Below, one piece after another: positions 42,904-43,281 of a stretch of DNA of 46,526 bases. The translations under genes were made by a program, and so were the position numbers. The DNA is from a bacterium (lineage in GTDB: Bacteria > Actinomycetota > Acidimicrobiia > Acidimicrobiales > Bin134). The DNA is taken from assembly GCA_026709025.1 (NCBI GenBank), contig JAPOTT010000037.1:1-46526 (forward strand), written 5' to 3'. The notes beneath the pieces are model-generated. The model saw only the letters and a program-made list of their open reading frames with translations. It ran no database searches and was not told the origin of the DNA. The number at the start of each line of letters is the position of its first letter. Position 1 is the first letter of the stretch.

Positions 42904-43281
42904 TCAGTGCGGTAGCGAAGATGAGAGCGCTCTACTCTCTCTCTCTCTCTCTCTCTCTCTCTCTCTCTCGGCTGAGGCCCCCGAGCCTTTTTGTGTGTCT
43001 AGCAGGGCTAATGCGGTTTCGCGGGTTTCTCCAGCGGGGCCGAAAACGGCATCTAAAAGCAGCGCTAAAGATGATTTGCCCGAACCGTAAGGGCCTGTAA
43101 TAGACCAAGCTCCTCCTGCTTGGCCAGAGTCGGCCACTGTAGCGACTCGCCGTAACACCTCGCGAGCCCGTGCTGTTACTACATACCCGTCAAGGGGTGT
43201 ACACAGCGAAGCGTCTCTTTCGAGGTTGGCAGAGCGAGCGAAACGACCTTCTACTGTAACATGGTCGGCCAAGACAACCAT
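42904..43281 (-). CDS. sspC: SspC large ATPase, N-terminal part (truncated by the CT tract)
   Basis: 125 aa from ATG 43281, which shares a base with the sspB stop (TGATG); GTG 43284 is the alternative. Walker A is GPYGSGKS, about residues 63-70, after DGYVVTARAREVL. Reading enters the (AG)17 tract as Glu-Arg repeats, then leaves the sspC frame, giving SRALSSSLPH and TGA at 42904-42906. It has Walker A but no Walker B, so it is inactive as an ATPase in this state. Confidence 0.8.
   Translation of the reverse strand: MVVLADHVTVEGRFARSANLERDASLCTPLDGYVVTARAREVLRRVATVADSGQAGGAWSITGPYGSGKSSLALLLDAVFGPAGETRETALALLDTQKGSGASAERERERERERESRALSSSLPH
42935..42968. repeat. (CT)17 microsatellite, probable phase-variation tract in sspC
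   Basis: 34 nt of uninterrupted CT (AG on the coding strand) lie between the Walker A and Walker B parts of sspC. With n repeats the two parts are in one frame only if n is a multiple of 3 (15, 18, 21). With n=16 the codon after the tract is TAG, and with n=17, as here, TGA follows 10 codons later. Confidence 0.9.

Follow-up and report, generated by a model that had tools for sequence, protein, structure and literature searches.

A length-variable AG tract as a probable on/off switch of the phosphorothioation gene sspC in sponge-associated Acidimicrobiia

Main finding

The sspC gene of the window (the whole stretch of 46,526 nucleotides analyzed here, which forms an entire contig of a 2.2 Mb genome that is 96% complete) contains an (AG)17 tract that very probably acts as a contingency locus, a switch by which the gene is turned on and off at random. 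This reading of the sequences rests on tracts of differing length at the same site in related species, on purifying selection, on the lack of any other lesion in the gene and on the hypervariability of sister tracts. A slipped-strand on/off locus had already been proposed in the initial annotation; to this we add the same-site tracts (n=11-22), the purifying selection and the sister hypervariability, and slippage itself we infer from these patterns. Beyond that annotation, the putative switch belongs to a genus-wide set and other sspC lineages bear tracts of other kinds.

The tract and its reading frames

The only perfect dinucleotide tract of at least six units in the window is an exact (CT)17 at 42935-42968, corresponding to (AG)17 on the coding (minus) strand of sspC; under a first-order model about 1e-17 tracts like it are expected there by chance. 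Whatever the frame, Arg and Glu alternate in its translation. As assembled, the upstream part of the gene (42904..43284, minus strand) has a GTG start, encodes 126 aa with a Walker A sequence reading GPYGSGKSS, and stops at a TGA 10 codons past the tract. The downstream part (39714..42998, minus strand) is a single open frame of 1094 codons without internal lesion. Both match PADLOC SspC, the former over positions 2-90 (1e-23) and the latter over positions 153-1100 (2e-264), in agreement with the earlier statement that the tract splits sspC into a Walker A and a Walker B part. In the alignment the tract occupies a short, length-variable loop leading from the Walker A helix to a conserved GFHRGLVTA segment; a search by sequence found no solved SspC structure.

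Direct translation bears out the frame arithmetic given earlier for n=15, 16, 17, 18 and 21. With 15, 18 or 21 units the two parts are joined in one stop-free ORF of 1188, 1190 or 1192 aa, respectively. With 16 units translation ends at once after the tract, at a TAG adjoining its 3' end (42932..42934, minus strand) which lies within a TAGAGCG motif and is in frame if n = 1 mod 3, and the assembled 17 units append SRALSSSLPH before the TGA. The repeat unit is not a multiple of three, the tract lies inside a reading frame, and other lengths rejoin a single ORF.

Same-site tracts in related species

Relatives of sspC were collected as 63 loci from GTDB contigs and from the 22 genomes of the genus (the Candidatus Poriferisocius group, sponge-associated Acidimicrobiia whose genomes are mostly metagenome-assembled). 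The comparison with relatives suggested in the initial annotation returned an AG tract at one and the same sspC site in five species of the genus, with five different lengths: 17 units in the window's genome (G000), 22 in G017, 11 in G009, 12 in G008 and 16 in G001 (Candidatus Poriferisocius aerobius). TAGAGCG follows the tract on its 3' side in all five. Judged by their flanks, G000 and G001 would be ON at n=0 mod 3, and G008 and G009 at n=1 mod 3; in G017, where the upstream sequence is just 50 bases, the frame homologous to that of the relatives runs directly into TAG. All five consensus assemblies read OFF, out of frame in differing ways; the absence of an ON copy among these five tract-bearing sequences has a chance of about 0.13 if states are random.

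Four tract-bearing genes with a usable C-part form a clade with 100/100 support, and the window sspC sits on a long branch of the tree. Given this clade and synonymous sites that are close to saturation when G000 is compared with the others, the tract has been maintained for a long time. Congeners outside the clade have a full-length sspC without tract. A search for strain-level copies of the window locus gave no match among plasmids or viral contigs.

Pairwise dN/dS between the tract-bearing species is 0.11-0.28 on both sides of the tract (dN 0.12-0.32 and dS 0.45-2.8 for the C-part, dN 0.05-0.32 and dS 0.22-2.2 for the N-part, the larger dS values being near saturation), and no second stop or frameshift was found in the available C-parts of these copies (about 3.3 kb where readable). 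A permanently silent gene is not expected to look like this, and the earlier claim that sspC is not decayed is upheld: both flanks are under purifying selection, and the C-parts of tract-bearing relatives are not broken by further mutations. It is thus very unlikely that a frameshift in the tract has become fixed and that the gene is heading for decay. The OFF state of all five consensus sequences and the long branch of the window gene would fit such a course, but read-through copies without a second lesion, low dN/dS across species that are all OFF, and a tract held at one site over a long divergence would not; besides, sister genes equipped with such a tract are ON in certain species (see below). 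The fact that all five are out of frame might also suggest that sspC is a genuinely divided gene, with its Walker A piece and the remainder working as two proteins. We consider this extremely improbable, since sspC is a single full-length gene in congeners and in other relatives, Walker A would be parted from Walker B, and the frame relation between the two pieces varies by species.

Hypervariability of sister tracts

Similar tracts in other genes of the genus allow the comparison of nearly identical copies. Two type IIG copies from different genomes are alike over 3 kb without a mismatch and nonetheless have 11 versus 14 units, and a third copy (99% alike) has 18. Among ResIII copies with proteins 92-97% alike we find n=16 (OFF), 31 (ON), 29 (OFF) and 16 (ON), and N6 methylase copies that are 97% alike have 8 and at least 46 units. 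These near-identical copies could have arrived by transfer, or their contigs could be mis-binned; judging from the sequences, the tracts change faster than their flanks in either case.

These differences also bear on two alternatives that we have to weigh for sspC. One is that slippage of transcription or a ribosomal frameshift within the tract lets OFF templates yield full-length SspC, without any heritable switch. Long repeats can cause polymerase slippage, and five genes that are all OFF yet under purifying selection would be in keeping with it. Still, we judge it very unlikely: the required shift differs by species, which speaks against a fixed programmed frameshift, and the finding that otherwise identical DNAs differ in tract length points to heritable change. 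The other holds the tract length to be an artefact of the assembly or the library. Metagenome assemblies and repeats are a combination that invites this suspicion, and several contigs stop at the tract or close to it (L070, L093 and L094) or begin about 300 bases past it (L012). On the other hand, a 34-base tract fits in one short read, the same site is found in five genomes of which at least some come from different projects, and differences of 3-7 units exceed normal stutter, making an artefact highly improbable.

AG tracts across the genus

Arrays of at least eight AG units are found 27 times in the 22 genomes of the genus (against 0.006 expected), counting one hit per tract and taking L089 and L103 as one array and L071 and L095 likewise as one. 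All 27 lie in DNA-modification or restriction gene families (phosphorothioation included), assigned on the basis of Pfam, PADLOC or a close resemblance to some tested member: five each in sspC, type IIG Eco57I-like and N6 methylase genes, four in ResIII, three in type ISP, two in a second N6 methylase family and one each in Mrr-ResIII, N6_N4 methylase-HNH and EcoRI-type methylase genes. Three of the arrays are in the window's genome (sspC, N6_N4 methylase and EcoRI-type methylase). Both ON and OFF states occur among the ResIII, N6 methylase and EcoRI-type methylase genes of the genus. The control, (AC)8, yields just five arrays in the genus with two of them in R-M genes, so that the strong bias belongs to the AG tracts. 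Outside the genus AG tracts are also rarer: 12 of its 22 genomes have them, compared with 8 of 115 from the order's other families, where, in the cases read by eye, they lie at the starts of apparent secreted proteins or in intergenic positions, without a recognisable R-M gene. The placement of all 27 arrays in modification or restriction families, together with the differences in length and state between near-identical genes, suggests that sspC is a member of a defence-wide contingency set.

Several individual loci deserve a short description. In the window's genome, (AG)9 lies right behind the ATG of the N6_N4 methylase with HNH domain (L105, about 1498-1517; G000:C2:41773-41790), the frame of which meets a stop so that the gene reads OFF, and (GT)15 in the coding strand splits a type IIG restriction-methylase gene (L112, G000:C3), also OFF. 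The EcoRI-type adenine methylase has (AG)9 in the ON state in L097 (G000:C56) and (AC)10 at the equivalent position, OFF, in L111 (G016:C46). The type ISP contig L101 (G006:C30) ends in a long G run (positions 1-60), a few hundred bases past (AG)23, which is either a second tract or an artefact of the assembly end. Three loci from other families within the order (L117, L119 and L124) have (AG)9-19 at, or just upstream of, the start of an apparent secreted protein bearing a signal peptide. Tracts of (AC)9-13 occur at or near the starts of lipoprotein- or membrane-protein-like ORFs (L110, L113 and L114), possibly phase-variable surface genes.

Other repeats in distant sspC lineages

With thresholds of at least nine for homopolymers and at least six units for dinucleotides, we counted seven repeats in 153 kb of sspC and three in 603 kb of neighbouring DNA (44 loci; p=0.0009), an enrichment that is retained without the window's own clade (p=0.003). 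In L018 a G14 just 5' of Walker A leaves sspC OFF. A C9 in the interval between Walker A and Walker B does the same in L056, and a C10 at roughly that site reads ON in L020. L033 (G14 in the C-terminal half) and L013 (C9 and C10) are ON. A pentanucleotide array, (CCGCC)15, is present at L063 4799-4873, on a Cenarchaeum contig that also has a distant sspC.

The operon and a proposed mechanism

The tract-bearing gene is part of a hybrid operon on the minus strand (30232-45604). It contains, in order, sspA (cysteine desulfurase, 44405..45604), sspB (DUF4007, 43281..44405), sspC and sspD (PAPS-reductase family, 38858..39742), which completes the SspABCD gene set. These are followed by genes for a GIY-YIG domain protein (38496..38870), a DndB family protein (37224..38486), a protein with a sigma-70 region 4-like domain that is kept beside sspABCD (34957..37167), a PbeA-like helicase (32684..34960), a PbeC-like ABC ATPase (30232..32472) and a 214-aa protein without family (29742..30386), co-conserved behind pbeC. 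Of PbeABCD, PbeA and PbeC are thus present; PbeB and PbeD were sought in the 214-aa neighbour, which has no PADLOC match. The combination of sspABCD with pbeA/pbeC is also seen in L017, L018 and L030. No sspE or sspFGH was found among the operon genes searched, the contig ending 0.9 kb upstream of sspA, and a DUF262 protein elsewhere in the genome matches HEC-05 and not SspE. Divergent from sspA, on the plus strand (45710-46526), is a PLD-helicase gene (mREase_IV/PbeA-like) that is cut by the contig end; its counterpart beside sspA is also kept in L011.

Slipped-strand mispairing is a known mechanism for tracts of this type, and we take it as the simplest one here. AG units would be gained or lost in this way, and a third of all lengths (n = 0 mod 3 in the window) would give full-length SspC, whereas in the other two classes translation would end just past the Walker A segment and before Walker B. 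If SspC is lacking, the SspB-SspD machinery is not expected to phosphorothioate DNA, and cells would then flip at random, and presumably reversibly, between a modified and defended state and an unmodified one. Moreover, sspC starts inside sspB, and the sspB/sspC, sspC/sspD and sspD/GIY-YIG junctions overlap by a few to 29 bases (29 for the sspD start and the sspC end). Translation is therefore likely coupled, and an early stop in sspC should reduce sspD and may reduce downstream genes: an OFF tract would probably lower sspD and, by polarity, the pbeA/pbeC-like genes as well.

With these Pbe-type partners in the operon, an effect on restriction has to be considered. Polarity matters here because SspFGH and DndFGH are harmful to cells devoid of phosphorothioate (PMC8092258), and joint silencing of modification and Pbe-like genes could spare unmodified cells such self-attack. 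The same device would have been inserted into many DNA-modification and restriction genes of the genus. Whether the genus has recruited AG tracts nearly exclusively into such genes as a combinatorial defence phasome, in which the one tract of the Ssp operon silences modification and Pbe-like effector genes together, is a question to which we give roughly even chances.

Comparison with known systems

Reports describe phosphorothioate modification as partial and as varying from cell to cell, and a heritable repeat switch would supply one genetic source of this heterogeneity. That the AG tracts of this lineage are all located in defence genes points to phage pressure and gene uptake, and not to escape from host immunity, as forces able to drive phase variation in an animal symbiont. 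In addition, automatic annotation may label genes of this type as pseudogenes, by which defence systems would be undercounted.

While the mechanism is known, its target (sspC) and a genus with tracts directed at defence genes provisionally look new, the literature covered being the open literature. The author of the initial annotation knew of no contingency locus in Ssp or Dnd systems, and in the open literature we likewise found no report of repeat-driven phase variation in either. The term phase variation is absent from a comparative study of phosphorothioation systems (PMC10853773), and a review of host-dependent modification (PMC12707154), where it comes to phase variation, deals with R-M systems.

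A close counterpart is the type III mod gene M.MmyCI of Mycoplasma mycoides, with a coding-region AG-repeat switch that is off at AG12 and on at AG10 (PMC3498834). As in sspC, the AG tract lies inside a DNA-modification gene, a stop follows right after it and a change in length restores the frame; M.MmyCI, however, is a methyltransferase in a mollicute, whereas sspC encodes the ATPase of a phosphorothioation system in Acidimicrobiia. The Pgl system (type 2 BREX) of Streptomyces coelicolor, with its phase-variable pglX (cited in PMC9122589), is likewise a case of on/off switching of phage defence in an actinobacterium, and SspC also matches BrxC/PglY profiles. The gene switched in Pgl is a methyltransferase of another modification system, against the ATPase gene sspC here. 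Finally, in the SspABCD systems with SspE or SspFGH (PMC8092258) the homologues of SspA, SspB, SspC and SspD have the same order as in the window, but in the window they are joined to PbeA- and PbeC-like genes instead.
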